Source: Tildeniella nuda ZEHNDER 1965/U140 (GTDB taxonomy: Bacteria; Cyanobacteriota; Cyanobacteriia; Leptolyngbyales; Leptolyngbyaceae). Taken from it: a stretch of 64,000 nucleotides of DNA. Location: positions 310,001-374,000 of the forward strand of contig JAHHIG010000001.1 in NCBI GenBank assembly GCA_019358895.1, in the 5' to 3' direction. Each line of letters starts with the position of its first letter. Positions within the stretch are counted from its first letter, which is position 1. This document shows positions 13,159 through 37,028 of the stretch, one piece after another. The position numbers and the translations under genes are program-made. Under the pieces are notes generated by a model, which was not told the origin of the DNA, made no database searches, and worked only from the letters and a program-made list of their open reading frames with translations.

Positions 13159-13164
13159 AGCGTC

Positions 13165-13206
13165 ATGCTCAGTTCCATCATTCAATGGGCGATCTCTCGA
13201 TGCTGA
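13165..13206 (+). pseudogene. 14-codon stub of a duplicated RND gene start
   Basis: ATG at 13165 opens MLSSIIQWAISRC and stops. The intact pump at 14210 begins MLSAIIKWAIARRW. The stub lies 7 bp behind the adaptor gene, where the RND gene would normally start, with the CDF gene between stub and pump. This suggests that the CDF gene was inserted by recombination that left part of an old RND start. Confidence 0.65.
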
Positions 13207-13243
13207 ATCGCGGCAATAGGACAAGATTTTTGTAGAGGACTCC

Positions 13244-14194
13244 ATGCACATCCATAATCTCGAACAGTGGGAGCACACTCACGATTTCTCCGCCAACCAG
13301 TATGAAGCAGAAAAAAGCACCCAGAAGGTCATGCTGCTGACAGCCACCACGATGATTGTTGAAATTATCGCTGGCACTCTCTTTGGTTCAATGGCTTTGT
13401 TAGCCGATGGCTGGCACATGGCAACTCATACAGCCGCTTTTGGGATCGCTATCTTTGCTTATCGATATGCTCGTCGCTACTCAAGCAGTCCAAAATATAC
13501 CTTTGGCACTGGAAAAGTCAGCGCTCTTGGTGGTTTTGCGAGTGCGACCGCGCTTGCCGTAATTGCGCTGGTGATGGCGCTGGAGTCGATCTCCCGCTTC
13601 TTTCAACCTCAGGTCATCCAGTTTAATGAAGCGATCGGGGTCGCGATCTTTGGACTGGTGATCAATCTAATCAGTGGTTTTCTACTTCAGGAACACCATG
13701 ATCATTCTCATGGTCACGACCACCCTCATGATTACAATCTGCGGGCGGCTTACATTCATGTCTTGGCGGATGCGCTTACCTCTGTTTTTGCCATCGTTGC
13801 GTTGCTGGCAGGAAAACTCCTTGCCTGGAATTGGTTAGACCCGGCGATGGGTTTGGTCGGCGCAGCATTGATCACCCGATGGGCGTTCGGCTTGCTCCAA
13901 GATACCAGTTCAGTATTACTGGACGGAGCCTCTGATCGAAAAACAAGAGCAGCCGTTACATCCGCAATTGAAGAGGACTCTGATAGCCGCGTTGTTGACC
14001 TTCATCTGTGGTCTGTTGGTCAAGATCACTTGGCAGCGATCGTCTCACTGGTAACGCATTACCCCAAAGCCCCAGAGCATTACAAAAAATTGCTGACTAA
14101 CATCGAGCATCTTGCTCACGTTGTTGTGGAGGTCAACCCGTGTCATGGGCAACCCTGTGCCCCTTCTCTGTCTGGCAGTAATAGAACCACTTAA
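13244..14194 (+). CDS. CDF-family divalent metal transporter (DmeF/ZitB-like)
   Basis: A 316-residue cation diffusion facilitator that exchanges Zn, Co, Ni or similar ions for protons across the membrane. It has six hydrophobic helices; the first pairs include GSMALLADGWHMATHTAAFG (the HxxxD-type site: D and H in ADGWHMATH), and the second site is YIHVLADALTSVFAIVALLA. A His-rich loop (EHHDHSHGHDHPHDYN, about residues 148-163) lies between helices 4 and 5, and a short cytoplasmic ferredoxin-like domain follows. The His at the N-terminus (MHIHNLEQWEHTHDF) fits DmeF-type Co/Ni exporters. The metal is not certain. It lies inside the adaptor-RND gene pair. Confidence 0.88.
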   Translation: MHIHNLEQWEHTHDFSANQYEAEKSTQKVMLLTATTMIVEIIAGTLFGSMALLADGWHMATHTAAFGIAIFAYRYARRYSSSPKYTFGTGKVSALGGFASATALAVIALVMALESISRFFQPQVIQFNEAIGVAIFGLVINLISGFLLQEHHDHSHGHDHPHDYNLRAAYIHVLADALTSVFAIVALLAGKLLAWNWLDPAMGLVGAALITRWAFGLLQDTSSVLLDGASDRKTRAAVTSAIEEDSDSRVVDLHLWSVGQDHLAAIVSLVTHYPKAPEHYKKLLTNIEHLAHVVVEVNPCHGQPCAPSLSGSNRTT

Positions 14195-14209
14195 TTTTTT
14201 AATTCGCTT

Positions 14210-17200: not shown

Positions 17201-17344
17201 CTCTTCACCTCTACCGCCCTGACGCTGCTGATCTTACCTGCGCTCTACGCCAAGTTCGGCAAGTATCTCTTTCCCAAACGGTCAATCGTTGAGAACGGCA
17301 AAGTCTCCCAATCAGAGATGGAACGTTTGTCAGGAAAGGCTTAA
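14210..17344 (+). CDS. heavy-metal RND efflux pump (CusA/CzcA family)
   Basis: A 1044-residue inner-membrane proton-driven pump of the HME-RND class, full length for the family. It has the usual two repeats of one helix, a large periplasmic loop and a group of membrane helices. Helix 4 carries the family signature (GLAVAIGSAVDDAIVDAENV), whose acidic residues serve proton transfer. Later hydrophobic groups include IAFVVITIIMYLSVKSVAST and LVGFVTLFGVATRNGLLLVD. With the adaptor upstream it should make a tripartite exporter; no outer-membrane partner gene is nearby. The metal (Cu/Ag or Co/Zn/Ni) cannot be read safely from the sequence. Confidence 0.92.
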   Translation: MLSAIIKWAIARRWLVILGAMILTIWIVRTISQMPLDVFPTFAPPQVEIQTEAPGLAPEEVESLVTLPIESAINGTPGVSAVRSSSAASISVVRVVFNWGTDIYQARQLVTERLQSAQSKLPEGIETPQIAPISSPIGTIVTYAFTSQTTDLMDVRRIVDWQVTNRLLAVPGVTQVIVFGGDVRQYQVLVAPEKLQAFNVSLQDVSEAVAAANVNAPGGYLITPDREKLIRGIGRIEDIEALKQSVITARNGTPVSITDVAEVKIGAAVKRGDASVNAQKAVVAIVNKQPQADTPTVTRAVEAAMAEVKAGLPEGIQVATTFRQETYIDASIENVREALVEGSIIVALILIPFLMNWRNLAVCLAALPLSLLIGVLALNWLGQGLNTMTLGGLAVAIGSAVDDAIVDAENVYRCLRENKYAPKPRPVLEVVFEGCQEVRDSVFGATIITVVVFSPIFALTGVEGSIFIPMGLGYLAAVLASSVVALTVTPALCALLLPYGRLPEREPWVARFFKRLYLPLLTFAMRRSTVIFGIAAASLVAAVIVVPSFGRTFLPEFQEQSLVNTLLLYPGSSLEATNSAASVLEHKLKDNPRFQSIQVRSGRAAGDADAAGVNLAHLDVELSETGMKDRKASVELLREEFSKVPGAAPNVGGFISHRMDEVLSGVRSAIAVKIFGPELEQLRTLGQQVNDAMQSVEGIVDLQLEPQIPVEQIQLQFDRVAAARYGLTIGQLSETIETALNGRVVSQVLEQQQTFDLVVWLEPEARQSLDTIGNLRVDTPSGNKIPLAQVATVKDGTGPNTINRENVSRLLVVAANAQGRDLRSVVNNIQANVKQQVQLPAGYYIQYAGQFEAEERASQNIVLFSAIAFVVITIIMYLSVKSVASTVMIMINLPLALVGGVIAVAMTGGILSIASLVGFVTLFGVATRNGLLLVDNYNTKFAAGIPLKDLLIQGSMERLNAILMTAFTSALGLAPLVVAGGPGKELLQPLSIVVLGGLFTSTALTLLILPALYAKFGKYLFPKRSIVENGKVSQSEMERLSGKA

Positions 17345-17389
17345 CCGTTTGAGTCAAACAGTTTTGTTCATTCAATCAGGAGAAACATC

Positions 17390-17884
17390 ATGCAATTGAA
17401 AATGAATGTGATGACAATGACGGCGATCGGACTGCTCTTCTTGGGCGCTTGCAGCAGTGGCAACCAATCAACCGCTCCTACCAGTAGCCCTGCGGCTTCT
17501 GCGCCTGTAGCAACTCAACCTTCTACTGCCGCTGCTCCTGCTGCTAAAGCTGAGACTGGTGAGAATCACGGTGGGCAGGGCGGACAAGTCATTGAGTCAG
17601 GTGTCTATCATCTAGAGCTCGTAACTGCAAAAGAAGCAACAGCGACTCACATCGACTTCTTCTTGCAAAAAGGCGACAACCACGAACCGATTCCCAATGC
17701 AAAGGTCACGGCTCAACTACAATTACCCGACGGCAGTCAGAAAGCGTTACCCATGAAGTATGACGCTGGCGATAAGCATTACACGGCAATCCTGCCCAGT
17801 GCTGCTGCAGGAGAGTACAAAGTTGCCATTCTGTCAGACATCAACGGCGAGAAGGTGAATGGGCGCTTCAGCTTTAAGCAATAA
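17390..17884 (+). CDS. small exported lipoprotein of the metal cluster
   Basis: A 164-residue protein with a lipoprotein signal (MNVMTMTAIGLLFLGACSSG, lipobox LGAC), an Ala/Pro/Ser-rich linker, and a beta-rich domain from about residue 65 (GVYHLELVTAKEATATHIDF ... YKVAILSDINGEKVNGRFSF). The domain looks immunoglobulin-like, as in periplasmic proteins of efflux clusters. A His pair near ENHGGQGG could bind metal. It is 45 bp behind the RND gene with AGGAG before its start, so it is probably in the same transcript. No specific family recognised. Confidence 0.7.
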   Translation: MQLKMNVMTMTAIGLLFLGACSSGNQSTAPTSSPAASAPVATQPSTAAAPAAKAETGENHGGQGGQVIESGVYHLELVTAKEATATHIDFFLQKGDNHEPIPNAKVTAQLQLPDGSQKALPMKYDAGDKHYTAILPSAAAGEYKVAILSDINGEKVNGRFSFKQ

Positions 17885-17896
17885 GACTGAGTTTCA

Positions 17897-17913
17897 TTTC
17901 ATGCTGATTTCAT
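17897..17913 (+). promoter_or_regulatory. TTTCAT-N5-TTTCAT box upstream of the Cys/Met-rich gene
   Basis: TTTCATGCTGATTTCAT is identical to the box at 10530; an extra overlapping TTTCAT starts at 17892. It is 80 bp before the start of the small exported gene that precedes the response regulator, so it may also drive the regulator genes (autoregulation). Confidence 0.6.
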
Positions 17914-17992
17914 TTCTCAGCCTTAAGCTGGAAATAGGGCTGCTCTGAAAGAGCCTTTGATAGTCTGTTTAATGATTCAGTTAGGAGCAAAC

Positions 17993-18244
17993 ATGAACAA
18001 ATTACACGGAATTAAGGTTGCTGCTGCTGGCGTGATCGCCCTACTGTCCATTGCAACGATCGCGGTTGGTAGTGGTTTGGCTCAAGAGAATCAGAAACCT
18101 GTTGCTCCAGAGAATCAGAAACCTGCCGCTCAGACTGAGCAAATGAGCGGTTGTGAGTGCTGCAAAAAAATGATGGAGAAAAAGATGAACGACAGTGAGA
18201 ACAAAATGCCTGGAATGAATCCCCCAGCGCCATCAGGAAAGTAG
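17993..18244 (+). CDS. small exported Cys/Met-rich protein, putative metal binder
   Basis: An 83-residue protein; the ATG at 17993 has TAGGAGC just upstream. It has a signal peptide (VAAAGVIALLSIATIAVGSG, then LAQ), a short direct repeat (ENQKPVAPENQKPAAQ) and a dense metal-ligand patch, GCECCKKMMEKKM, followed by NKMPGMNPP. Three Cys and several Met in 20 residues of an exported protein beside a copper/silver efflux system suggest a periplasmic Cu(I)/Ag(I) sponge or chaperone. I do not recognise a named family. Confidence 0.65.
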   Translation: MNKLHGIKVAAAGVIALLSIATIAVGSGLAQENQKPVAPENQKPAAQTEQMSGCECCKKMMEKKMNDSENKMPGMNPPAPSGK

Positions 18245-18368
18245 GTGTCGTTAGTCTCCTTGGACTGATTGATTGAGCTTTTCCTAACCATCGGAGGTGT
18301 TTCAATGAACACCTCTGGTTCAGAGCACAGCGTTGCCAGACAGGTACGGCTGTTTATCAAGCGATCGT

Positions 18369-19073
18369 ATGCGAGTGTTACTGGTGGAAGATGAACCCGA
18401 TTTAGGTACCGCAATTCATCGTGTCCTGCATCGAGAAAGGTACGTGGTGGACTGGGTTCAAGATGGCAGCGAAGCTTGGGCTTACCTTGATAACTCCAGC
18501 GTTCACTATACTTTAGCCATTTTAGACTGGATGCTACCCGGACTGACTGGTGTAGAGTTGTGCCAACGGCTCCGCCGTCAGCATAACCCACTCCCCATTC
18601 TGCTGCTGACTGCGAGAGATCGCATGGAAGATAAAGTCGCTGGACTCGATGCCGGAGCCGATGATTATCTGGTCAAGCCGTTTGGTATGGCAGAACTTTT
18701 GGCACGCCTGCGGGCGCTGCAAAGGCGATCGCCCGAACTTCACCCCCAACAACTTCAAGTCGGTAAGCTGATGCTCGACTACGGCGCACACACGGTTTCC
18801 TGGCAAGATTCTAAGGGTCAACAAGCCCCGATTGCTCTAACCGCAAAAGAGTTTCAGACACTGGAATACTTTATGAAACATCCCAGCCAGGTGGTAACGA
18901 GCCAGCAAATCATGAATCAACTCTGGGAAGTCGGCGCAGAGCCAACCAACAACGCGGTAGCTGCTCAAATTCGGCTACTGCGACGTAAGCTTGCGGAAGT
19001 CGGATGTGACGGGCTCATTGAAACGATGCATGGCATTGGCTACCGATTCAACGTTCCTTATGCGCCAAAATAA
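18369..19073 (+). CDS. OmpR-family response regulator (CopR/NrsR-like)
   Basis: A 234-residue regulator from the ATG at 18369 (MRVLLVEDEPDLGTAIHRVL). The receiver domain has acidic E7/D8, phospho-acceptor D53 (AILDWMLPG), T81 and K103 (YLVKPFG). A winged-helix DNA-binding domain follows (residues 130-230, ending GIGYRFNVPY). It overlaps the kinase gene by 14 bp. As the only intact regulator beside the efflux genes it probably binds the TTTCAT boxes at 10530, 11429 and 17897. In cyanobacteria such pairs sense copper (CopRS) or nickel (NrsRS). Confidence 0.9.
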   Translation: MRVLLVEDEPDLGTAIHRVLHRERYVVDWVQDGSEAWAYLDNSSVHYTLAILDWMLPGLTGVELCQRLRRQHNPLPILLLTARDRMEDKVAGLDAGADDYLVKPFGMAELLARLRALQRRSPELHPQQLQVGKLMLDYGAHTVSWQDSKGQQAPIALTAKEFQTLEYFMKHPSQVVTSQQIMNQLWEVGAEPTNNAVAAQIRLLRRKLAEVGCDGLIETMHGIGYRFNVPYAPK

Positions 19074-20391
19074 GCTGTTCAACCGCACTCGTGCTCAACT
19101 TGCAGGCTGTTATGCCGGAGTCATGGGCTTAATCTTAAGCTTGAGCGGACTGTGCACCCACCAAATGTTAGCCGTTGCTCATTGGCAAGCGGTTGAACAA
19201 GAACTGGAATCGATTTCGGGGACGCTGCACGACACTCTGGAACCAAAGCTCAAACAACCCGATCACCTTGAGCCTGCGAGCACGCAAGCCTTACCAGGAT
19301 TGTGTCTTGCCGAAACGGATTGCTCCAATGACGCTCAAAATCGGCATATCCTCGGCATTGTGCAACAAGGCAGCTACTACATCCGCTTCTTTACGCAGTC
19401 TGGACAACTGTTGGCGAGTTTGGGCAGTCAGCCAGATGGGTTGCCACCACCAGCCACCAAAGAGGGCTGGAACACGTTACGCAACCAGAGCGGCACGCGC
19501 TATCACCAAACGACGCTGTTGCTAAAAACTGCCACTGGGTCTGCTTGGGGCTACATGCAAATCGGGCGATCACTAAAAGAGTATGACGACTATCTCACCA
19601 CGCTGCGACTATTACTGGCAGTTGGGCTACCGCTCTCCATGCTGGCGGTTGCAGGCGCAGGGTGGTGGCTGGCTGGGCTGGCGATGCGACCCGTCTACCA
19701 GTCCTATCAACAAATGCAACAGTTCACCGCTGACGCTGCCCACGAACTCCGCACTCCCATAGCTGCCATCCGTGCCACTGTTGAGTCGGTTCAGGATGAG
19801 GATGATCTGTCAACTGAAGAAATGCAGGAAACATTAGCGGTAGTCGATCGCCAAAACAATCGCCTAGCAAGCCTAGTACAAGATCTCTTGTTGCTGTCTC
19901 GGATAGATCAAAAGGTTTTGGCAGAAAAACGTCAAACCTGTTGCCTCAACGACTTGCTTTCTGATTTAGTAGAAAGCTTATTAGTGTTAGAAATTGCCGC
20001 TTCCATCAAGCTATTAACGCAGTTTCGAGTCAAGGAGCCGCTGTATGTCATGGGTGATGAAAATCAACTGGGACGCTTATTTTCTAACCTCATCGTCAAC
20101 GCCCTGCAATACACTCCCCCTGGTGGAATCGTAACAGTGATTTTAGAGCGAGATGAATCCCACGCGTTGATCCAGGTTCAAGACAATGGCATTGGCATCG
20201 CCTCAGTAGACCAATCCCGTATTTTCGATCGCTTTTACCGAGTGAGTTCTGATCGCTCTCGCCAAACTGGAGGAGTAGGGTTGGGACTGGCAATTGCAAA
20301 GGCGACCGCCCAATCGCATCATGGCAGCATTACAGTCGAGAGTGAGTTGAGCAGGGGCAGCACATTCACTGTACGCTTGCCCTTAATTTAG
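19060..20391 (+). CDS. metal-sensing sensor histidine kinase
   Basis: A 443-residue membrane kinase, read from the ATG at 19060 inside the end of the regulator gene. It has two membrane helices (about residues 14-40 and 184-208) around a 140-residue periplasmic sensor domain that holds a CLAETDCSND motif with two Cys. The HisKA box has H228 (DAAHELRTPIAA). The ATPase domain has the N box (NLIVNALQYTP), G1 (VQDNGIGIA) and G2 (GGVGLGLAIAK). It partners the upstream regulator; a metal as signal is inferred from the neighbours. Confidence 0.88.
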   Translation: MRQNKLFNRTRAQLAGCYAGVMGLILSLSGLCTHQMLAVAHWQAVEQELESISGTLHDTLEPKLKQPDHLEPASTQALPGLCLAETDCSNDAQNRHILGIVQQGSYYIRFFTQSGQLLASLGSQPDGLPPPATKEGWNTLRNQSGTRYHQTTLLLKTATGSAWGYMQIGRSLKEYDDYLTTLRLLLAVGLPLSMLAVAGAGWWLAGLAMRPVYQSYQQMQQFTADAAHELRTPIAAIRATVESVQDEDDLSTEEMQETLAVVDRQNNRLASLVQDLLLLSRIDQKVLAEKRQTCCLNDLLSDLVESLLVLEIAASIKLLTQFRVKEPLYVMGDENQLGRLFSNLIVNALQYTPPGGIVTVILERDESHALIQVQDNGIGIASVDQSRIFDRFYRVSSDRSRQTGGVGLGLAIAKATAQSHHGSITVESELSRGSTFTVRLPLI

Positions 20392-22398: not shown

Positions 22399-23289
22399 AT
22401 GACTACTTCACTCGCTACAGTCACCATCGCCTTTTTGCAACGCCCCGGTTTGGCTCATACGACCTTGCGTTCCTATGAATCGACGCTGATGCCCCTGCTG
22501 CAAGAATACGGGCGATTACCGATCGAAATCTTGACTCGCCAAACGTTACAGGACTATCTCAACAACCTGACTGAGATTTCCTACACCACTCATCACCGTC
22601 ATCAAGCGATTATCCAGGCATTGTTCAACTTCGCCGTAGAGCAAGGCTATCTGAAAGCCAACCCGATCGCTCAGCTGAAACGGCGAAAACCAGACCAGGC
22701 GAAAGGTGAACATCGGAGCGATGCCGTCATTCGTTATCTGACACCAGAGCAGCTTGCAGTGTTGTATCGTACGATCGCCTCTGATCTGCGCCTGAATGCG
22801 CTCGTGCATCTCCTGCATCATACAGGCGCAAGAATTGCCGAAATCCTAGCGCTCGACTTGCAAGACCTGAATCTGGAGCAACGGAAGTTTCAGGTCTTGG
22901 GCAAAGGCAACAAGCAACGCTGGTGTTTCTACAGTGAAGATGCCGCAAAAGCATTAGAACGCTACTGTCGCTATCAAAGGCATTCCAGCAGTGTGGCATT
23001 ATTTACAGCACAGCAACCCTTTACTTTGGAAGTCAGTCGTCTGAGCTACCGTATGGCACATCAAGACTGGACTGACTTCATTGCCCAAGAAGCAACCCTG
23101 AAAAGCATTCGGATTCACGACCTGCGCCACACCTTCGCGACCGAACGGGTGGGCTTGATGGGCATTGAGGAACTGCGAGCGTTAATGGGACATCAGAACA
23201 TTCAGACAACTTTGCGTTACCAAAAGGTAACATCACAGCGAGCCGAAACGGTTGCCAAGAAAGCCTTTGAATCACTCACTAAAAAGTGA
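22399..23289 (+). CDS. tyrosine recombinase (phage integrase family)
   Basis: A 296-residue site-specific recombinase. The N-terminal SAM-like core-binding domain covers residues 5-95; the catalytic domain follows. All catalytic residues are visible: R145 (HTGARIAEIL), a Lys in the KGNKQR beta-hairpin, H240-x-x-R243 (IHDLRHTFAT), H265 (LMGHQNIQTT) and Y274 (LRYQKV). It looks active. The family joins or resolves DNA at short inverted sites; here it could serve a nested integron-like or plasmid-like unit within the CAST. A perfect 11-bp hairpin lies 48 bp behind it. Confidence 0.88.
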   Translation: MTTSLATVTIAFLQRPGLAHTTLRSYESTLMPLLQEYGRLPIEILTRQTLQDYLNNLTEISYTTHHRHQAIIQALFNFAVEQGYLKANPIAQLKRRKPDQAKGEHRSDAVIRYLTPEQLAVLYRTIASDLRLNALVHLLHHTGARIAEILALDLQDLNLEQRKFQVLGKGNKQRWCFYSEDAAKALERYCRYQRHSSSVALFTAQQPFTLEVSRLSYRMAHQDWTDFIAQEATLKSIRIHDLRHTFATERVGLMGIEELRALMGHQNIQTTLRYQKVTSQRAETVAKKAFESLTKK

Positions 23290-25601: not shown

Positions 25602-26831
25602 TCAAGCAAACAAGCTCTCTAAAAATGTCTCTCCTGCCTGCTGCAAGTCTCCATCAACAGCGAAGGTCAGAGTGCGGACGCGAATCTGCTGCACTCTGGT
25701 ATACAGAGGCTTTTCTAGCAGTTGCGGATAGATGAGAATTGCTTCGGAACAGCCTTGAGTGGTTGCATAGGCGATGATTTGCGCCACATCATCTGTTCCA
25801 GGGGCGGTCGGAGTTTTGTATTTAGTATCCAGCACATAGCGGGTTTGTCCCGTAGTGATATCAACAAGCACAAGATCGATGCTGAAAGACAGCGAACCCT
25901 CCTGGTTGATGTGAACCTGATGCTGGGCTTTAACATCCAGGTTCTGAGGCAGCAGTTTTGTCGCCCGGTGGGCTTTGAGCCACTCTGCAACAAACAGTTC
26001 GTAGAGTCGAGCCATGCTGACGAGGAACGGCAACATTTTGCGATCGCCCTCGGTATGGCTGGGACCACTCTGCTCTAGAAAAAAGTGACAGAGAGCGTGA
26101 AGCGGTTGATAGTCTTCATTGAGACGATGATAGAGGCGCTTAATGCAGGCTTGAGCCGTATGGGATTCGAGTGAGACGGTGCCCTGAAGAGCGTGGTAAG
26201 CCTGCCTCACGTTCGGGAGGACTTCTGGGCTACAGGCTCCGCAAGCGGCAATTTTGCGGAGTGTCCAAAGCAGAATTTGGTTGTCCTCAATGTCAGGTGT
26301 GTGCTCTTTGTAGTGGCACTTGATTTTGACTTCCCACGGTCGTTGTACCAATTGCCGCGCGTCCATGCGTCCTCGCACGAAGGTCATCCGATCGCTCTTG
26401 GGGATGTAAGTACGATACAGACCTTGCTTAGCGCGATCGCGGATACGCCGTGCCAGGATGTTTGCCAAGTAATTGTAGAAGTCTTCCAGTTTGTCGAAAT
26501 TGCTTAAGCCATCGAGAAAATGAAAGCTCTTGAGTTGGTAGGCGTATTCCAACATGCCAAAGATGTTTGCCAGTCCTACTTTGGGCTGAAGCCGAAAGCC
26601 TATTGCGTCTGACAGCGGAATATAGCCAACCCATCCGTGAGACGTTAGTCGCCACTGTCTGCCTGTGATGGGCGTAGGGAATTCCACTTCAACCACCCCT
26701 TTTCGCAGGGCACCGTTTGCACCATACGACTGCCAGAGCAGCGTTCCCAGTTCTAAAGAGATGAGGTCTTCGGCGAAAAGCTTTGAGGCGTACTCAGTCA
26801 GTTCGTAAACGATGGGATGGGTAGCATTCAT
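25602..26831 (-). CDS. mcrC: McrC-like nuclease subunit of a McrBC restriction system
   Basis: A 409-residue protein. The N-terminal half is the McrC connector that stimulates the McrB GTPase. The C-terminal half is a PD-(D/E)xK nuclease: SIDLVLVDITTGQTRYVLDT followed by KYK gives the D...DxK catalytic pattern. Its start overlaps the end of the McrB gene by 4 bp. McrBC systems cut DNA with modified cytosine, so they block phage and incoming methylated DNA. Confidence 0.85.
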   Translation of the reverse strand: MNATHPIVYELTEYASKLFAEDLISLELGTLLWQSYGANGALRKGVVEVEFPTPITGRQWRLTSHGWVGYIPLSDAIGFRLQPKVGLANIFGMLEYAYQLKSFHFLDGLSNFDKLEDFYNYLANILARRIRDRAKQGLYRTYIPKSDRMTFVRGRMDARQLVQRPWEVKIKCHYKEHTPDIEDNQILLWTLRKIAACGACSPEVLPNVRQAYHALQGTVSLESHTAQACIKRLYHRLNEDYQPLHALCHFFLEQSGPSHTEGDRKMLPFLVSMARLYELFVAEWLKAHRATKLLPQNLDVKAQHQVHINQEGSLSFSIDLVLVDITTGQTRYVLDTKYKTPTAPGTDDVAQIIAYATTQGCSEAILIYPQLLEKPLYTRVQQIRVRTLTFAVDGDLQQAGETFLESLFA

Positions 26832-29389
26832 GGGCGTAATTGCCCCTCAACCTGTGCCCATCTCAAGTTTTTCATCTTGTCGGACTGGTCAAAAAAGAAT
26901 TCTTCCAGATACGGCTCAATTTCCAGTTGCCAGATGCTTTTGAGTTCTGTGTCGAGGTTTTCTCGCAGAAAGAAGCTGGTGCCAAGCTGATAGTGCGGAT
27001 CACCAATTTGAGCGTTGATGTGCTGCAATACATTGACGAGGTTTTCCGTGGCATAACCAGTGGCTTGGTGGTACTTTCGCAGACCTTCGTAGTTGGGCGG
27101 GACGTAGAGAAAGGCAAAACGGCGACGTAGCGCGTGATCAACCAGGGCAATGGAGCGATCGGCAGTATTCATCGTACAAATGATCCGAACGTTTTTAGGA
27201 ATACTAAATGTTTCACCACTTGCCAAGTACGCTTTTTCATCCCGGTATTCCAGGAGATACATTAACTCCCCAAAAACTTGAGAGATGTTAGCACGGTTGA
27301 ATTCATCGATGATGAGGACGCAACTATGCTCACCGCAAAGTTGAGCCTTTTTACAGAACTCTAGAAAACGACCTGGAACGATCGGATAATCTAATCCTCC
27401 TTCAGTTCGCTTAGGACGAATACCCTGAATAAAATCTTCGTAGGTGTAAGCAGGATGAAACTGAACCATATCGACAAAACCATTCCCCCCACCGATTAAA
27501 TGTTGAGCAAGGTGACGAGCCAGGAAGGTTTTTCCAGTACCAGGCGGTCCATACAGAACCGCTTGTCGCTTACGATCGAGCGCCTTTACCCAATCGTGCA
27601 ATAAACTCTCATCCAGTTGGGTTGCCTCCGCGCAATCAGATAATGTGAATGTTGGAGCGACTGTTATAGGCAAGACAGTTGGATCATCTTTTAGAGAATT
27701 GATGTACTCACGTATTGCTTGAGCTGGGTCATCTAAAGTGGCAAGCAAAACCAGTGGAAAAGCTTGCTTAAATGTTTTTACAATATGATCACTTAATTGT
27801 TCATCTGAGCTTTGTAAAACTAATTCTGCTGGAATAACTGAGGTGGGTGAACTGTCGCAGAGATCCCATAAGAGTATTTCCTGATACTTCTGATAATTTC
27901 GTTGAAATCGTTGATTGTATTCGTCTAAAGCTTGGAAATAAGGGCTAGAAATCTGAAAACCAAACTGCAACCCAGTGCTAGTAATTCGGATAAACAGAAA
28001 GCCAAGAAAACCAAAGCGTCCTTCCAGTGATGCTGTACCCCATGTTGTACCTGCTTGAGTTGTTATCTGTGCTGAGGGGCGGGTTGCAATCAAACGCAGA
28101 AGTTTATTAAATGGTTCTTGAACATGCTCGCGAAGCTCGTCCTGATGCTGGTAATAGAAGGTCAGTTCTGGATTATCTTGCCATTTCGCGAGCAAAGCGA
28201 ACGTTGCTGGAGTAAAGAAATTAGTGGTTTTTGCTGGTGAGTGAGAAGGAACAGCATTACCACCTAATTCATCAAACTGCTCTGAAGTTAGACCTAGCAA
28301 GGTTCTTTGCCAATTTTTCTGATTAACTTTTTTAGGTGTTAGGTCGTGCCAATGAACTGGAAGACGGTGTTTGTATTTGGGAGCATTTGGCTCGAAGTAA
28401 TAGGTCCCTGTAACCGTTCCAATCCCAAGCACTTCTGTTTTACCCTTGTTGGCAACAATATAATCACCGGGCTTAATCTGTGCGAAGGTATGAACTTGGT
28501 TGACTCCAGATTTCTTCCATTTCAACTCTGGATGTTGGGTAATTAATTGGTCGCGACGCTTATAAAAATCTATGATGTCTAACTTGGAAATATCACCGAG
28601 TTCATCCCACTCGACCGCAATGAAACCCTGGTCACGGCATTCTTCCCACTGCCATGCGTTTTCACCCGGTGCAATCTTCCAGTAGTGCACATCGAAGGTA
28701 TATTTCTTCACCGCTACCAACCAGTGGCAGAACATATCAAACAGGTCATCATCATGCAAAGCCACATTAGGGCAGATTTGGCGCATTTCGGGCGCGATCG
28801 CCTGAATCATCTGTCGTAGCCCTGTATTGATTTGCGGATAGCCAGTCAGAAGCGCGTTATAGGACGTGTCCTCAAAGTAGTTAATGACGCGCCAGGGTTT
28901 CTTATTGACCAGCAAAAACTCGTCTGGGCGGAGGGCATTGAGAATAGGGGTTAGCATTCCCACCTGAAAGCCTTTACTGCAAGTGAGGCTGGAGAATTCA
29001 AGGCAGGCATCTTTTAGCTCAGTGGGGTCGGTGTCACAGCGTTGCACAAAGTTGAAAATCGCTTGGGCGATCGCTGTCCAGTCGTAGCTTTTGCCGTCAC
29101 TCTCGTACCACTTCTTCAAGTTCCCCGAAATTGAAGGAGCATGGTGAGCCCAGGCTCCTCTCGCCTCATTACTGTCTGTCTCAGCATGGGGCAGTAGCTT
29201 CAGCAATACGAGGTCGGTGATATCTTCACCACGAGCTACGGCAGCTTGAATCTTCTGAAAGTTTTGGCGACCTGTTTGACGATTTTCGTCGTAAAGGCTG
29301 ATGTGCTTTTGCCCTTCCGGCGTGGATACAAAAGCGTCTGCAAATTCTTGAAAGAGACGGATGAATTCAACCTTTTTGCTGCCAAACAT
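26828..29389 (-). CDS. mcrB: McrB-like GTP-dependent motor with long N-terminal modules
   Basis: About 853 residues from an ATG at 29389. A longer reading to 29710 runs antisense-like through the neighbouring methyltransferase tail and looks spurious. From the N-terminus: a helical region (FIRLFQEFADAFVSTPEGQK ... KGFQVGMLTPILNALRPDEF), an EVE-like beta domain (GFIAVEWDELGDISKL ... KPGDYIVANKGKTEVLGIGT), a DUF3578-type McrB N-domain (FNKLLRLIATRPSAQ), then an AAA+ core near residues 590-853 with Walker A GPPGTGKT (about 612), Walker B VLIIDEFNRAN and the McrB signature MNTADRSIALVD. The N-terminal parts read modified DNA in the family. It forms an operon with mcrC. Confidence 0.82.
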   Translation of the reverse strand: MFGSKKVEFIRLFQEFADAFVSTPEGQKHISLYDENRQTGRQNFQKIQAAVARGEDITDLVLLKLLPHAETDSNEARGAWAHHAPSISGNLKKWYESDGKSYDWTAIAQAIFNFVQRCDTDPTELKDACLEFSSLTCSKGFQVGMLTPILNALRPDEFLLVNKKPWRVINYFEDTSYNALLTGYPQINTGLRQMIQAIAPEMRQICPNVALHDDDLFDMFCHWLVAVKKYTFDVHYWKIAPGENAWQWEECRDQGFIAVEWDELGDISKLDIIDFYKRRDQLITQHPELKWKKSGVNQVHTFAQIKPGDYIVANKGKTEVLGIGTVTGTYYFEPNAPKYKHRLPVHWHDLTPKKVNQKNWQRTLLGLTSEQFDELGGNAVPSHSPAKTTNFFTPATFALLAKWQDNPELTFYYQHQDELREHVQEPFNKLLRLIATRPSAQITTQAGTTWGTASLEGRFGFLGFLFIRITSTGLQFGFQISSPYFQALDEYNQRFQRNYQKYQEILLWDLCDSSPTSVIPAELVLQSSDEQLSDHIVKTFKQAFPLVLLATLDDPAQAIREYINSLKDDPTVLPITVAPTFTLSDCAEATQLDESLLHDWVKALDRKRQAVLYGPPGTGKTFLARHLAQHLIGGGNGFVDMVQFHPAYTYEDFIQGIRPKRTEGGLDYPIVPGRFLEFCKKAQLCGEHSCVLIIDEFNRANISQVFGELMYLLEYRDEKAYLASGETFSIPKNVRIICTMNTADRSIALVDHALRRRFAFLYVPPNYEGLRKYHQATGYATENLVNVLQHINAQIGDPHYQLGTSFFLRENLDTELKSIWQLEIEPYLEEFFFDQSDKMKNLRWAQVEGQLRP

Positions 29390-29426
29390 TGGAGAAGATG
29401 TCCTGTTTTTGGAAATGAAGGGAGGG

Positions 29427-29850
29427 TCAGGCACTCTGTTGAAGTTCAGCAAACTGCCACCGTTTAGTGTGCCCATCTTCACGGCAGAGGAGGACGCCAA
29501 ACCATTCGAGGCGTTCCAGGTTTTCGGCGATCGCACCCTTATACCGTCCACCCCCTTTGAACTGAGCAGCGATTTGTGCCACTGTCCATTCGCCGCCACT
29601 GGTGCGGAGGAGATCACGGATGGTGGCAAGTTGTTCTTTGGGTTGTTTGGGGAAGGGCTTTTGCTCGACCGGGGCGATAACGGCTTCTTCGGCTTCGACG
29701 ACTCCGGCAATTACCTGTTGGGTCTGCACTTCGTTGGGTGCCTGGTAGTCGGGACGGAGCCAGCGAATGATGCCGTTGCGCTCCTCTTCGGCACGATCGG
29801 CGTTGAGGGCAACGAGTCGTTCACCCAAATCCAGGTTTTTGGAAGAAGTT
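29427..29850 (-). pseudogene. C-terminal remnant of a class I DNA methyltransferase
   Basis: The frame reads LGERLVALNADRAEEERNGI then IRWLRPDYQAP, and ends with TVAQIAAQFKGGGRYKGAIA and WFGVLLCREDGHTKRWQ, a winged-helix-like tail. This looks like the end of the same type of MmeI-like methyltransferase whose N-terminus is at 31278-32309. The junction is near 29850; upstream codons look like chance sequence. The methylase core is missing, so this cannot work by itself. Confidence 0.6.
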
Positions 29851-29917
29851 AATTTGAGTAGCCTACAACCTTTGCTTATGCTCATTTTTCTTAAATTCAA
29901 ATGGCTAAAGGATGTAG

Positions 29918-31186
29918 TCAAATGGATAAAGGATCTGGATTCGGTGGGACAAGAAAATCAATTGGCTGATTAATAAACCCATGTTTTGAGTACAATCTAA
30001 ATCTAATAAAAGGAGGTACTAAATACCAGTTTTCACGTAAATTAGATTGCTTTAAAATATACTTTTGAGAGAAGTCCCTTAATATCTGAATAGTTTTATC
30101 CTCTCCAAGGAATGCTATTGCCGTAAGCTCAGCCATTGATGCATAGAAAAAGCACAAAAGAGCCAGATTTTTATATAGAAAATATAGCAAATGCCCCTCT
30201 TCTATTTCTATAATTGTGTTAATTCCAAGATAATTAGCCCAGACGCGAAATCTATATATGAAATCAAGGAAGTTACCATGTTCAGACACAAACTTGATGT
30301 ACAGATCCTCAAGATCATATATTGTTTTTTCGGGGAAACGAGGACACTTGCTGTACTTGTATTTCCAGAACTCTTTATCAACCCCTCTTAAATTCAGCAT
30401 TGAATCTTTACACGGAATAGTAATATTAAAGGGATAAAAGACAGTAGTTCCATTCAATTTAGAGAGCAAATTGTTATTAAAAAAATTAGTGCTCTTTCTA
30501 TGCTGTTCGGTGTTGAGGTTGTCATTGTTTGTAAAAACTATCGAATTTGTATATTCATATATTGAGTAATACGTTTGAATAATATTCCATGATGGAGATT
30601 TTCCAATATAACTAGAGGCATTTAGTCTAGTACCTACTTCAAGGAAGTCCGAAGGGACAGGAACAAGTCTTACTAGCTCGTTGTACCACCCCTTTGTTAG
30701 GTGAAAAATAAATCTCTCTTGAGAAAAATTTTTACCCACACTATTACGGATTTTGTTTGTCGAAATTTTATTTTCTTTTAAGAAATTATCTAAAAGAGTA
30801 TCGATTCTATATTTTTTCTTCTTGATGGAATCTTTAGAGGAATATCGTAGCTTCAACAACCAGCAAACAATATCAATGGTGTCATGAAAAAATAAGTACT
30901 CTGTGATTTTTGGATAGTGTTCGTACAGGTAGAAGTCGTCAAGAGAACCAACCTTTTCCAAGATTTTAGGCTTCTCCATGACAAGGTATAACTTATTTAA
31001 GTGATGGCTTAAAATATAATCTTTGCTGTTTTGTTTGAATATTTGAATTGAGACACGATCACAGATTCTCTTCAAGTCTTCAATTGAGTAGGCTGTTTCT
31101 AAAGATATTTCCTCTAGTAATTTAAAGGGCTTAAATTGATTTGATTCATAAAACGTGTTGCGGCTTTGAGAAGAAATAATTGCCAT
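29918..31186 (-). CDS. unknown AT-rich gene inside the split methyltransferase
   Basis: A 422-residue protein of no family that I recognise. The DNA is visibly richer in A and T than either side, with AAA/AAT/TTT codons, which points to recent acquisition. The protein is rich in Lys, Asn, Ile, Tyr and Phe. Middle residues about 195-255 (SWNIIQTYYSIYEYTNSIVF ... LNTEQHRKSTNFF) resemble the HEPN-type pattern of an aromatic helix, YxS, then a later H; this is weak. The C-terminal half has hydrophobic helices (HLLYFLYKNLALLCFFYASM). Its place next to McrBC and methylase parts suggests defence. Confidence 0.6.
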   Translation of the reverse strand: MAIISSQSRNTFYESNQFKPFKLLEEISLETAYSIEDLKRICDRVSIQIFKQNSKDYILSHHLNKLYLVMEKPKILEKVGSLDDFYLYEHYPKITEYLFFHDTIDIVCWLLKLRYSSKDSIKKKKYRIDTLLDNFLKENKISTNKIRNSVGKNFSQERFIFHLTKGWYNELVRLVPVPSDFLEVGTRLNASSYIGKSPSWNIIQTYYSIYEYTNSIVFTNNDNLNTEQHRKSTNFFNNNLLSKLNGTTVFYPFNITIPCKDSMLNLRGVDKEFWKYKYSKCPRFPEKTIYDLEDLYIKFVSEHGNFLDFIYRFRVWANYLGINTIIEIEEGHLLYFLYKNLALLCFFYASMAELTAIAFLGEDKTIQILRDFSQKYILKQSNLRENWYLVPPFIRFRLYSKHGFINQPIDFLVPPNPDPLSI

Positions 31187-31277
31187 TTAGAATCAACCCT
31201 GTCTACTATAAATAGCCATTACAAACTTCAATTTTACTCTTCATACACTTGAAGAACATATTTCTACAATCTGAACA

Positions 31278-32309
31278 TTACTTTATGTAAGATGTCGGCG
31301 TGTAGTGTGCTCTTAGGCGGCTCCGCTCCTTCTTGTCCAGCGCCCGCTCTAGCAGCGTCCCAAAAATGGCAGGTTCCACCTCCGCCCAGTCCTTCTCCGC
31401 TGCCTCATACAGCGTTTCTAGCCGTGCTTTTGGCAGGTCAAACGCCGCTGCATCCGCAAAAAAGCTCCCGTTGAACCGCAAAATGCGCTCAAACCCAAAA
31501 CTGCCGCCCGTGTTCATCGTTTGCCAGAGGCTCTCAATCTCTGGCTGAAACAGTTTTGGGTCAGTCAGCCACCGATCCTTCAACGCCTTCGTAAAAACCT
31601 CACCTCGCAGCAGATCCACATCTTCCGCAAACATCGTGAAGATGCAGCGCATCAAGAAGTTGGCAACCTCCTGCCGCTCATTGCCCTGCTCCTCCAGCCA
31701 CCGCGCCAGCTTCGCCAACGTAGCGGCAACTTCCCGCGTCACTTTTGCCCGATACTTTTCCGGGTTCAGGCTTTGCGGATCGTTGAAGATGGCAACAAAG
31801 CGATCGAAGACCTTCTCATCCAGCAGGCGATCGATCGCAATGGTTTCCCGTGCCCCATAGCCGCCATAGTTGCCGCTAAAACTCATCCACACTTCAAAGT
31901 GAGAGCCAATATCGTAGGTCATCACAAAGGGTGGCTTTTGCGTCAAAAACGGCGTGTAGCTGAGTGCCTGATAAAAGGCTTTCTCCATCGCCGTGTCGTA
32001 GGTCTTCGTACCCCGCTTCGCCGTGCCCTTGTTAGAAGCACTCCCGCCCTGTTTCGCCTCAATCAGAAAATGCCCTTCCTTGTAGAAATCGGCATAGTTC
32101 GTGCTGAAGCCGTCTTTATGAATGACGCGAATATCCTTGTCAAAGGCATACGGATCGCTGGGGATATTGCCCTTTGGCGGTGGGCGATCGACTCCCAACG
32201 CATCACACAGATCACGAAAGAAGCCCTGATAGTTGGCTCGCTCATTGCCCTGAGAGCCTTGCCACGTTTTCAGAAAGTGCTGGACTCGTTGCCGATCTGA
32301 GTCGTCCAT
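31278..32309 (-). pseudogene. N-terminal part of an MmeI-like restriction-methyltransferase, truncated
   Basis: The 343-codon frame begins MDDSDRQRVQHFLKTWQGSQ and holds a nuclease-like segment (YADFYKEGHFLIEAKQGG, with D and ExK), then a helical connector with CIFTMFAEDVDLLRG. It ends AHYTPTSYIK and a stop, exactly where the methyltransferase domain should begin (the family continues after HYTP). The full family has 900 or more residues. The tail is found at 29427-29850, with an unrelated gene between. The product could persist as a stand-alone nuclease domain, but loss of modification makes this unlikely. Confidence 0.7.
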
Positions 32310-33135: not shown

Positions 33136-33234
33136 CTTTAGAGTATGATACCTCACAGAATAAAAGTACATCTGAACTACTAGCGGATAGCCTAAAACGT
33201 TCAAGTAGCTTGCTACCCTGGGTCGTTGCTAAGT

Positions 33235-35193
33235 ATGAGCATCATTACCATTCATTGCCGCCTTGTCGCCTCTGAGCCTGTTCGTCGCCACCTCTGGCAC
33301 CTCATGACCGAGAGCAATACCCCCCTGGTTAACGACCTGCTGACGCAAGTCAGCCAACATCCCGATTTTGAAACCTGGCAACGCCGAGGGACTGTCCCAG
33401 AAAAAGTCGTTAGAGAACTTTGTGAACCACTCAAAGCCATTTACCCAGGTCAGCCTGCACGCTGCTACGCTTCGGCAATCTTGATGGTGACTTATACTTA
33501 TGAATCATGGTTAGCACTCCAGCAGAACCGCCGCCGCCGTCTGGATGGCAAACAAAAGTGGCTGAATGTAGTGAAGAGTGATCCGGCACTACTTGAACTC
33601 AGCAGCACCACTCTCGAAGCGATCAAAGAGAGGGCACAAACCGTTCTGAAGCAACTCAATATAGAGCCTGAAACTCAAGCAGCTTCCAACCCCAAGAAGC
33701 GTCAGGCTGCACAACAGCAGACTCAGTCTGCCAACAAAGCAAGTCCCATGACGCGTTTGTTTGAAGCTTATGACGCGACAGACGAGACCTTGAACCGTTG
33801 CGCGATCGCCTATCTGATCAAAAATGGCTTCAAAATCCCTGAAACTGAGGAAGACCCAGAAAAATTTGCCCACCGCCTTCGCCGCAAGCAGAAAGAGGTC
33901 GAGCAACTTGAGGCTCAGCTTCAGGCTCGCCTACCGAAAGGACGGGATCTAACCGGGGAAGAGTTTATGGAGACATTGGCGATCGCCACACAGCAGATTT
34001 CCGAAAGCGTTGCCCAAGCACGCGAATGGCAAGCCAAACTGCTTACCCGACCCGCCTCTCTGCCCTATCCCATCATCTACGGCAGTTCCACGGATGTCCG
34101 CTGGGGTAAGACCGCAAAGAGAATTACCGTCAACTTTAGTGGCATCGATAAGTATCTCAAAGCAACTGATCCTGACCTTGAAGCATGGTTCAAGACCACC
34201 AAAGCATCTCCTTTCCAGGTGTACTGCGACCAACGGCAATTGACCTTCTTCCAACGCTTTTTGGACGATTGGCAAGCCTATCAAGCGAATAAAGCTACCT
34301 ATCCAGCAGGCTTACTCACCCTCAGTTCAGCCATGCTGGCTTGGAGAGAAGGCGAGGGTAAGGGTGAACCCTGGCATGTAAATCATCTCGCCCTTTACTG
34401 CTCGTTCGATACTCGCTTGATGACCGCAGAGGGCACTCTGGAAGTTCAGCAGGAGAAGCTAGCTAAAGCTACCAGGAACCAGACTCTTGAAACCTCTGAC
34501 CACGAGTTGACAGAACACCAGCAAAAGTTCCATCAGCGCAATACCTCCACTCTTAGCCGCCTGACAAATTTGCCCCATCGCCCCAGCCAGCAACCTTATC
34601 GGGGCAAGCCAGAAATTTTGGTAGGACTCAGTCTTGGGTTGGCTCATCCCGTCACAGCCGCCGTTATCAATGCCAGCACAGGCGATGCACTGACCTATTG
34701 CATGCCTCGCACCTTGCTGGGCGATGACTACCACCTGCTCAACCGTCAGCGCCAGCAGCAGCAGCAACATGCTCTACAACGTCACAAAAATCAGCGGCGG
34801 GGTGTGGCGTACCAACCTTCAGAAGCAGAACTGGGTCAGTACGTTGATCGCCTACTGGCAAAGGCAATCATCCAACTCGCCCAAACCTATCAAGCAGGCA
34901 GCATCGTGATTCCAAACCTGACACACCTGCAAGAATTACTAGCCAGTGAGATTACGGCAAGGGCTGAACAGAAGTCGAGCGTAGTTGAGGTTCAAAACAA
35001 GTACGCCAAAGAGTACCGCCAGAACATCCATCGCTGGAGCTACAACCGACTCATTGAAGCGATCCGTAGTAAAGCGCAGCAACTTGGCATCACCGTTGAG
35101 TCAGGCTTTCAGCCGCTCCAAGGCAAACTCCAAGCACAAGCACAAGAGATGGCGATCGCTGCCTATCACGCCCGTGCGATCGCTACAAAGTAA
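33235..35193 (+). CDS. cas12k: Cas12k, guide-RNA-binding effector of the CAST
   Basis: A 652-residue effector from the ATG at 33235 (MSIITIHCRLVASEPVRRHL), a few codons inside a longer frame. The length and order fit Cas12k: N-terminal LWHLMTESNTPLVNDLL, a basic Arg/Lys segment (QNRRRRLDGKQKW), LPKGRDLTGEEFMETL, GEGKGEPWHVNHLALYC, then a degenerate RuvC fold (ILVGLSLGLAHPVTAAVINA) and YAKEYRQNIHRWSYNRLIEA. Cas12k binds DNA through a GTN PAM but does not cut it; catalytic RuvC acids are missing in the family. It is followed by tracrRNA and the array, and is divergent from a regulator. Confidence 0.95.
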   Translation: MSIITIHCRLVASEPVRRHLWHLMTESNTPLVNDLLTQVSQHPDFETWQRRGTVPEKVVRELCEPLKAIYPGQPARCYASAILMVTYTYESWLALQQNRRRRLDGKQKWLNVVKSDPALLELSSTTLEAIKERAQTVLKQLNIEPETQAASNPKKRQAAQQQTQSANKASPMTRLFEAYDATDETLNRCAIAYLIKNGFKIPETEEDPEKFAHRLRRKQKEVEQLEAQLQARLPKGRDLTGEEFMETLAIATQQISESVAQAREWQAKLLTRPASLPYPIIYGSSTDVRWGKTAKRITVNFSGIDKYLKATDPDLEAWFKTTKASPFQVYCDQRQLTFFQRFLDDWQAYQANKATYPAGLLTLSSAMLAWREGEGKGEPWHVNHLALYCSFDTRLMTAEGTLEVQQEKLAKATRNQTLETSDHELTEHQQKFHQRNTSTLSRLTNLPHRPSQQPYRGKPEILVGLSLGLAHPVTAAVINASTGDALTYCMPRTLLGDDYHLLNRQRQQQQQHALQRHKNQRRGVAYQPSEAELGQYVDRLLAKAIIQLAQTYQAGSIVIPNLTHLQELLASEITARAEQKSSVVEVQNKYAKEYRQNIHRWSYNRLIEAIRSKAQQLGITVESGFQPLQGKLQAQAQEMAIAAYHARAIATK

Positions 35194-35236: not shown

Positions 35237-35810
35237 GAACAATAGCGCCTCAGTTCAAGCTTTTTGAGCCGCTGAACTGTGAAAAATGAGGGTCAGTTTG
35301 GTCGTCGCAAGACGACTGTGCTTTCCGACCCTGGTAGCTGTCCGCTCACTGACTGCCATCTTGGCACAGACTTCATTTTGAGGCTTGTATGGGGATGGGA
35401 AGCTGCATTCGTTGGTTCATTCTTCAAATGTAGCGCAGGTGCGCACCCAGCAGAAGTGAGTTCAGCCTTCACTGTGTGAAGGTACGGGAGCATCATCGCT
35501 TCAATTTATTGAAGCAAATGGTGTGACTGAAGTGTCACTGGCGTGACAGCGGTGCATAACTTAAAGTGGGGAAAATTTAGCCCCCAGATCGGCTGAAACC
35601 CTTACGGGCTAGAAGTGCCGTTCTGGAAGGCTTCCCGCCTTAAAATATACGCCGTGGCAGCTACTGCTGATACGGAACCCGCTTTGTTGCTCTCACTGGC
35701 AGGGCGAAAAGCTGTTCACGGGTGAACAGCGATCTCTCAAGAAAGAGGGTATCTGAATCGGATTCCGTATCAATCGCCTCCGAGCAAGGAGGAGTCCTCC
35801 ATCATTTTTC
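35237..35810 (+). ncRNA. tracrRNA of the type V-K CAST (ends approximate)
   Basis: The region behind cas12k matches the ShCAST tracrRNA as I remember it: CTGTGAAAAAT (from 35276), GGGTCAGTTTGG, a hairpin GTCGTC-GCAA-GACGAC, CTTTCCGACCCTGGTAGCTG, TGCCATCT and AGGTGCGCACCCAGCA (near 35438). The 3' part is longer than usual. A CCCGCC at 35634-35639 can pair with GGCGGG of the repeat. A later block (CCTCC-GAGCAA-GGAGG-AGT-CCTCC, near 35776-35800, then ATCATTTTT) looks like the ShCAST 3' end and a terminator. The length, about 570 nt if both belong together, is provisional. Confidence 0.75.
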
Positions 35811-35854
35811 TGGCAAACCGAAGCGGGGTCAAAAACCCCTGGAGGTTTGCCAGA
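35809..35854. repeat. 46-bp hairpin between tracrRNA and CRISPR array
   Basis: TCTGGCAAACC (35809-35819) and GGTTTGCCAGA (35844-35854) are perfect arms; inside them GGGG and CCCC can pair further around TCAAAAA. It lies directly behind the T-run that may end the tracrRNA. Variants of GGTTTGCCA recur near 35944. Confidence 0.55.
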
Positions 35855-35998: not shown

Positions 35999-36182
35999 GT
36001 CGCCATCGCCCTTCCAGAGATGGGCGGGCTGAAAGTACCACCAGATTCCTTCAAAGAAACCTGCGAGGGGAGTCGCCATCGCCCTTCCAGAGATGGGCGG
36101 GCTGAAAGCGATCGAACTCGGTTGATTTAATCGTGGTTGATTTAGGTCGCCATCGCCCTCCCAGAGATGGGCGGGCTGAAAG
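35999..36182 (+). CRISPR. short CRISPR array of three repeats
   Basis: Three 37-nt repeats at 35999-36035, 36072-36108 and 36146-36182 begin GTCGCCATCGCCC and end GGGCGGGCTGAAAG; the third differs by one base (CTCCC for CTTCC). Two spacers of 36 and 37 nt lie between them, and a third follows at 36183-36223. The CTGAAAG ending is typical of V-K repeats. No match to the full spacers is seen elsewhere in the window. No cas1/cas2 is present, so new spacers would need other help. Confidence 0.93.
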
Positions 36183-36223: not shown

Positions 36224-36260
36224 GTCGCCACCGCCTCCTAAGAGATAGTCGGGTTTACCT
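36224..36260 (+). repeat. degenerate fourth CRISPR repeat
   Basis: GTCGCCACCGCC, then AAGAGAT and CGGG keep the repeat register, but the 3' part is TTTACCT in place of CTGAAAG. It defines a 41-nt third spacer at 36183-36223. The lost 3' end should impair crRNA formation downstream of it. Confidence 0.65.
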
Positions 36261-36300: not shown

Positions 36301-36354
36301 AAAGGAATAGAGCTTGAATTTTGAGGGGGACTGAAAGGAGCACACCCTTGGTAA
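36301..36354 (+). CRISPR. delocalised repeat with tRNA-Thr homing spacer
   Basis: A degenerate repeat ends GGGGGACTGAAAG (36325-36337). The next 17 bases, GAGCACACCCTTGGTAA (36338-36354), are identical to the tRNA-Thr(GGU) gene strand 36554 down to 36538. The match stops at 17 bases (TCA here, GGG in the tRNA). Short spacers behind an atypical repeat that match a tRNA are the known homing guides of type V-K CASTs. Confidence 0.92.
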
Positions 36355-36357
36355 TCA

Positions 36358-36489
36358 GCGACATTAACTCGCGAAAAGCAAGGATGTATTCATTAACGAC
36401 GTTAATTTGCGAAATCATTACTAAAAGAAGTAAATTCGCCGAAAACGACATTAATTTGCGAATCGCGACATTTAATGTGCGAACGTACA
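36358..36489 (+). repeat. CAST right end: TnsB-type sites and terminal repeat
   Basis: Four sites in inverse orientation to the left end: 36358-36375 (GCGACATTAACTCGCGAA), 36395-36415, 36443-36462 (CGACATTAATTTGCGAA) and the 25-bp terminal repeat 36465-36489. The last two sit side by side, as do the outer two of the left end. The right end is more compact than the left (132 against 204 bp). The homing spacer ends only 3 bp before it. Confidence 0.88.
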
Positions 36490-36502
36490 CCTTGAAATGC
36501 AG

Positions 36503-36574
36503 AGCCCGTGACGAGGATTGAACTCGTGACCTCACCCTTACCAAGGGTGTGCTCTACCACTGAGCCACACGGGC
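36503..36574 (-). tRNA. tRNA-Thr (GGU)
   Basis: A 72-nt cloverleaf on the minus strand: acceptor GCCCGTG pairs with CACGGGC, D-arm GGCTCAGTGGTAGAGC, anticodon stem CACCC/GGGTG with loop TTGGTAA (anticodon GGT), T-arm ACGAGTTCAATCCTCGT, discriminator T, CCA not encoded. The CAST lies 13 bp from its 3' end and its homing guide matches the D-arm/anticodon part. The gene is intact after insertion. Confidence 0.95.
36538..36557 (-). other. CAST attachment target: protospacer and GTA PAM in tRNA-Thr
   Basis: On the minus strand GTA (36557-36555) is followed by GAGCACACCCTTGGTAA (36554-36538), identical to the homing spacer. From PAM to the transposon end at 36489 there are 65 bp (36490-36554), within the 60-66 bp reported for ShCAST insertion. 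Confidence 0.9.
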
Positions 36575-36672
36575 AGTTTTGATTTGAAAGGATAAATACT
36601 TAAGGATGAAGGCTTAAAAATACTTTCTTTTATCCTTTATCACTCATACTTTATCCTTTCTCTTGTCGTGGA

Positions 36673-36754
36673 TGGGCCGAGCTGGATTTGAACCAGCGTA
36701 GGCGTAGCCAGCGGATTTACAGTCCGCCCCCATTAACCACTCGGGCATCGACCC
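36673..36754 (-). tRNA. tRNA-Tyr (GUA)
   Basis: An 82-nt tRNA on the minus strand with a long variable arm: acceptor GGGTCGA...TCGGCCC, anticodon arm GCGGACTGTAAATCCGC (anticodon GTA), variable arm near GGCTACGCCTACG, T-arm CTGGTTCAAATCCAG. CCA is not encoded. It lies about 100 bp upstream of tRNA-Thr on the same strand; the two may be one transcript. Confidence 0.93.
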
Positions 36755-37028
36755 ACTTCACCCACGGAAATTGATCCTAGCACAACAGCGTCCACGAGAT
36801 TCAAAGTCGTTTAGATTTTAGTCGGTCGATCACTTAGTGTTTCCCTGCCATTCTGCTCGGTTGGCATACAGTTGTTCGTGTGGCGTATTTCGCTATCTGA
36901 GCTTCAGCAGGGATGGGTCGATCGCACAGTCAGATCAAGAATCTGTGCGAATGGGCAAACCTTCACTATAATCAACGCGAACGGCATTCCTTCTGCTGCT
37001 CGGCGCTGTCATCACCCTTTGCCATCGT

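Follow-up and report, generated by a model that had tools for sequence, protein, structure and literature searches.

A 34.5 kb element lies directly beside a gene for tRNA-Thr(GGU) in the window, the whole 64,000-nucleotide stretch of cyanobacterial DNA analyzed here, and the locus raises the question of how the element came to that position. A sequence-only reading had proposed that 17 bases near one of its ends serve as a homing guide to the tRNA gene. RNA-guided homing of type V-K CRISPR-associated transposons (CASTs), in which a dedicated guide directs the element to a tRNA gene, was reportedly described by Saito et al. in 2021 (Cell 184:2441). Judging from sequence comparison, the window almost certainly holds a V-K transposon that homes by a 17-base anchor spacer to tRNA-Thr(GGU).

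The element and its probable 17-base guide

The element occupies positions 2030-36489 and contains the parts of a type V-K CAST, namely Cas12k, TnsB, TnsC, TniQ, a short CRISPR array and matching ends (Table 1). Its inverted ends at 2030 and 36489 enclose the genes and agree over 22 bases with no mismatch. The order tnsB-tnsC-tniQ, found at 2303-5608 and pointing away from the far end, is that of V-K elements. Cas12k, TnsB, TnsC and TniQ are open frames, and each aligns over most of its length with chains of known structure from ShCAST (Tn7747). A Pfam scan of TniQ gave no match, and no match to TnsA was obtained in the ORFs scanned, which were part of the element's ORFs.

Table 1. Features of the element and its surroundings, in window positions
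Feature	Position	Strand	Basis or remark
tnsB-side transposon end, TGTACGTTCGCACATTAAATGTCGC...	2030-2056	+	first 22 bases are the reverse complement of the other end; 2 mismatches in 30
TnsB transposase	2303-4177	+	phmmer to TnsB (7svw), E 1.6e-114; Mu-transpos_C
TnsC ATPase	4181-5047	+	phmmer to ShTnsC (7m99), E 1.6e-28
TniQ	5060-5608	+	phmmer to TniQ (8rdu, 7n6i, 7oxd), best E 2.6e-53
Cas12k	33226-35193	+	NF038191, 846.7 bits against a cut-off of 150; Cas12k 7n3o, E 1.7e-179
Putative tracrRNA anti-repeat region, GGAGTCCTCCATC...	35791-35816	+	prediction only
CRISPR array, repeats 35999-36035, 36072-36108, 36146-36182	35999-36182	+	repeat search; downstream of cas12k
Degenerate fourth repeat, without GAAAG end	36224-36260	+	read by eye; approximate
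Repeat-like tail GGGGGACTGAAAG (R*) preceding the guide	36325-36337	+	sequence and predicted pairing
17-base putative homing guide (anchor spacer)	36338-36354	+	match, survey, genome search
CRISPR-side transposon end, containing three 19-base repeats that may be TnsB sites	36357-36489	+	
Flanking CCTTGAAATG, recurring as CCTTAAAATG at 2020-2029 (9/10)	36490-36499	.	
tRNA-Thr(GGU), left intact by the insertion	36502-36574	-	ARAGORN
Protospacer within tRNA-Thr(GGU), tRNA positions 21-37	36538-36554	-	
PAM GTA	36555-36557	-	
tRNA-Tyr	36669-36755	-	ARAGORN
tRNA-Thr(CGU)	60531-60602	-	ARAGORN

The 17 bases at 36338-36354 (GAGCACACCCTTGGTAA) follow the repeat-like GACTGAAAG and, read as the reverse complement, match part of the tRNA-Thr(GGU) gene exactly (17/17), as had been claimed from the sequence alone. 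Within the window the + strand contains them a single time, and their reverse complement is likewise found once, at 36538-36554. A GTA PAM precedes the target on the tRNA strand, separated by 65 bases (36490-36554) from the transposon end at 36489; both had been read earlier and are confirmed by the coordinates. When the whole genome (96% complete) was searched for target plus PAM with up to three mismatches, three places were found: the target itself, the spacer, which counts two mismatches because it lacks the PAM, and one site with three mismatches. Target plus PAM is unique in the genome. The match is far beyond chance, since the second-longest exact inverted repeat in the 8.1 kb from 34894 measures 14 bases and guides of the loci surveyed below, when compared with tRNAs of other kinds, came within two mismatches in 2 of 2556 comparisons; the earlier statement that chance is very unlikely thus holds.

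Two further claims of the sequence-only reading stood in part. The guide had been placed behind a degenerate repeat, and the last ~13 bases before it are indeed repeat-like, but over the 37 bases starting at 36301 only 18 positions agree with the last array repeat. The spacer had also been said to avoid tRNA-Thr(CGU), matching it in the first six bases alone. Those six bases are contiguous from the PAM, yet by hand count 13 of 17 positions agree overall and the same GTA precedes them, so that 'avoids' is too strong a word. No transposon end of the window element's type lies beside the tRNA-Thr(CGU) gene of the window, which, taken with the 13/17 agreement, fits selectivity without proving it.

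According to the parts of PMC9938897 drawn on here, the anchor spacer of V-K CASTs is usually 17 nt long and follows a truncated repeat adjacent to the CRISPR-side end, which is named 'left' there, whereas here the ends are named by their neighboring genes. The protospacer is usually found in a tRNA gene just outside the element, with a GTN PAM and a PAM-to-end distance of 46-82 nt, apart from one exception of 147. The window agrees in all these traits, its 65 nt falling within the range. The same source describes the truncated repeat as usually clearly separated from the array, whereas in the window the start-to-start distance from the last good repeat is 155 bases and a degenerate repeat intervenes. 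Nothing essential distinguishes the window guide from a published anchor spacer. The homing of V-K elements is in print in the portion of PMC11406308 used here, and background on CASTs was taken from portions of PMC10293859 and PMC9876797. The window element is an ordinary and very clear member of the kind described, and its targeting trick is already known.

Under the homing reading, a guide RNA together with the tracrRNA in Cas12k would bind the tRNA-Thr(GGU) gene from the D arm through the anticodon, beside the GTA PAM. Insertion by TniQ, TnsC and TnsB would follow at a distance of 65 bases, immediately beyond the 3' end of the tRNA gene, and would leave that gene intact. Transcription and processing of the guide, its pairing with the tracrRNA and the transposition itself are steps that we infer. 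The predicted duplexes of the putative tracrRNA region with the R* tail (-18.6 kcal/mol) and with the array repeats (-20.5) are close. The idea that R* is the better tracrRNA partner was not supported, R* being stronger in 16 of the 30 loci with both values (one of them, L023, is a duplicate; other loci gave no motif or no array repeat). Nor did the comparison support a guide in register with the array. Measured between the starts of the last repeat and of R*, the spacing is 155 bases in the window; of six relatives, five gave ~62, 88, 112, 176 and 252 and L139 yielded no repeat, the repeat starts being approximate. None of the three array spacers matched in a search restricted to plasmids.

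Guide and tRNA pairs among Cas12k loci

The search for Cas12k covered 386 genomes of the phylum, of which 35 gave a match, and 42 genomes of the order, of which 21 did, with G000 and G008 in both sets. The 95 resulting rows comprised 92 distinct ones, or 91 without the window, from which 67 were taken and 24 fragments were dropped; six of these fragments extend to model position 600 or beyond. Together with seven named loci and the window, the survey set comprised 75 sequences. Nineteen could not be scored because their first 3.2 kb contained no right-strand tRNA, in some cases owing to a contig end. For each remaining locus the best 17-mer over all upstream positions was scored against a GTN protospacer of the nearest right-strand tRNA. 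This scoring required a GTN PAM but not a GAAAG-like tail.

In 53 of the 56 scorable loci, window included, the best 17-base match stands directly behind a GAAAG-like tail with zero (32 loci), one (18) or two (3) mismatches. These loci cover 19 kinds of tRNA; L023 among them duplicates L137, leaving 52 distinct. PAMs, within the GTN condition, were GTA in 38, GTT in eight, GTG in six and GTC in one. The PAM-to-end distance, based on the end motif, ranged from 41 to 72 in 42 of the 52 distinct loci, with the larger value used where two were possible. The test failed in L126, L145 and L151. The recurrence of the same anatomy in 52 of the 55 other scorable loci, along with position, PAM, distance, genome uniqueness and the empty site described below, supports the homing-guide reading proposed from the sequence alone. 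For programmable insertion, natural 17-base guides, which differ from their targets at 0-2 positions, offer useful points of reference.

Some guide-like matches were observed outside this scoring. In L126 an 18-base match to tRNA-Cys lies at 905-922 behind a GAAA tail, with a non-GTN PAM. L091 (oriented, 1350-1367), L146 (1327-1342) and L154 (1154-1169) contain inverted matches of 16-18 bases behind GAAA or GAAAG tails; no right-strand tRNA was called in these loci, and the matches are possibly homing guides to other targets.

Many elements adjoin tRNA genes and carry fragments of them, and the 17-base match could on that ground be no guide at all but the relic of a past capture of a tRNA fragment, as at integrase attachment sites. 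A relic of this kind is very unlikely here: the match is inverted, directly behind a GAAAG tail and paired with a GTN PAM, the arrangement recurs in 53 of 56 loci across 19 kinds of tRNA, and the tyrosine recombinase of the cargo is 13 kb away. Chance agreement with the tRNA, after untargeted transposition or recombination had brought the element, is an exceedingly improbable account. V-K elements do show much off-site insertion in experiments, as stated in the part of PMC11406308 used here, but the exact match, the PAM, the distance, the uniqueness of the target and the swapped-guide control all contradict a chance match. A decayed remnant, that is, a guide that once brought the element and is no longer expressed or active, is also unlikely, though less so than these two. 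Several related Cas12k genes are broken by stops or reduced to fragments, which favors decay, while the window's Cas12k, TnsB, TnsC and TniQ are open and its guide equals its target; this counter-argument is weak, as a recent loss would look alike. Homing by the anchor spacer is the best explanation.

The empty site and the flank repeats

The sequence-only reading had looked to an empty-site genome as a check on the insertion position. In G002, a genome of the same genus, the match to window 1912-2027 ends one base short of where the right-flank match (from 36500) starts, and left and right flanks adjoin at this very tRNA-Thr gene without an intervening element. The check thus came out in favor of the homing reading. 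The left-flank match is short (118 aligned bases, 74.6%). Beside the tRNA-Thr genes of G001, G005 and G006 no transposon end is present in the adjoining 150-170 bases, and the end motif, allowing up to four mismatches, was not found in these loci. Given the empty site in G002 and these end-free loci, the element most likely entered at its present place, beside the tRNA matched by its own guide. The ORF at 992-1870 was not found in four same-genus loci. This, the short left-flank match, the three failing and 19 unscorable loci of the survey and the missing exact 5-base target duplication count against the homing reading. Address, target, PAM, insertion distance and empty site are all readable from the sequence, which makes the locus an unusually clean natural case.

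CAST transposition gives a 5-bp duplication, according to the part of PMC9527255 used here, whereas the window flanks at 2020-2029 and 36490-36499 have 9 of 10 bases in common, against five expected. The pentamers directly adjacent to the ends, AAATG and CCTTG, differ. The lack of an exact 5-bp duplication does not exclude the element from the V-K group, because 16 of 20 scored V-K end pairs lack one. These 20 were kept from 29 elements tried (best end mismatch of at most 9/30) and nine were dropped; for L132 the second-best end alignment was used (4 mismatches, not 3). L098, L126, L135, L150 and L151 were tried for ends separately, outside the 20, and L098 gave a fair end pair (3/22) with no flank repeat.

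Among the 20, exact flank repeats of 5 bp were found in four (G383, G395, G141 and G431), of 8 in G100 (L244/L102) and of 10 in G074 (L165/L096), with none in 13. The elements with the 10-bp and 8-bp repeats, like the window element with its 9/10 repeat, all have TGTAC[AG]TTCGC-type ends. Seven of the pairs have ends of this general type; their repeats are 10, 9/10, 8 and 5, with three showing none. Unmatched left-right pairs, used as a control, shared at least 5 in 2 of 380 cases and at least 9 with one mismatch in none. When the window flanks are joined with a 10-base overlap they align without gaps to the empty site of G002, the 10 bases themselves being poorly conserved there. It could be, though we consider it rather unlikely, that some V-K transposons leave target repeats of 8-10 bases instead of 5, either through a wider TnsB stagger or through recombination of neighboring insertions on sister chromosomes through the element.

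Other end arrangements were noted as well. In the single genome G216 (L106, L278, L279) there are two V-K elements whose Cas12k and TnsB scores are equal. One has a right flank starting with CGTGG and the other a left flank that finishes in CGTGG, a pattern suggestive of recombination between the copies. The far junction of the second copy was not found in the stretch examined. L246 (G343:C62:106998-107606) has two inverted V-K-type ends 609 bases apart, possibly a miniature non-autonomous element, and its flanks contain no shared repeat.

Change of address and cargo

Whether other CASTs of this type also home to tRNA-Thr had been raised by the earlier reading. tRNA-Thr is the target in 11 of the 53 loci, window included (GGU in five, UGU in five, CGU in one). 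Ten others thus do so. The nearest same-genus elements target tRNA-Ala. In G025, from another genus of the family, GAGCACACCCTTGGTA precedes tRNA-Thr(GGU) with one mismatch in 17 and a distance of 64 bases, and is nearly the guide of the window. In L094, L100 and L116 another guide is directed at a more 3' part of tRNA-Thr(GGU), and G033 (L149) has its own guide for tRNA-Thr(CGU).

A Cas12k tree was built from 43 proteins, representing 43 of the 75 loci. In it the window groups with G005 and G006 (99/97), the nearest same-genus relatives with 71-72% Cas12k identity, both of which use tRNA-Ala(CGC). G025 is outermost in a clade of seven (99/96), its placement and that of L149 being less sure, as both belong to the three rows filled to less than half. 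Other members of the clade sit at tRNA-Thr(UGU) or (CGU). tRNA-Thr as a fixed target of the window's transposon type is contradicted by this tree. As the closest tree neighbors use tRNA-Ala(CGC), guide and target switch together within the window's Cas12k clade, and the address is switched rather than fixed. The window and 51 other distinct guide-tRNA pairs show that V-K elements change address, a change stated for V-K elements in general in the part of PMC11406308 used here. The term tRNA-Thr does not occur in the text of PMC9938897 or PMC11406308, supplements aside; because the supplements lie outside the literature covered, tRNA-Thr is not claimed as a new V-K site.

The cargo of the window element is varied. 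The genes at 6542-20391 are likely concerned with metal handling and include a cupredoxin, a P-type ATPase, a DUF305 protein, a membrane-fusion protein, a cation efflux protein, an AcrB-type pump and a two-component system. A restriction-type group at 25602-32309 consists of a McrB/McrC-like pair and an MmeI N-terminal part. The tyrosine recombinase gene lies at 22399-23289; according to the part of PMC11406308 used here, V-K elements do not have a separate site-specific recombinase. Another contig of the same genome carries one more transposon end of the window element's type (G000:C28:9923-9958, L276), perhaps a remnant.
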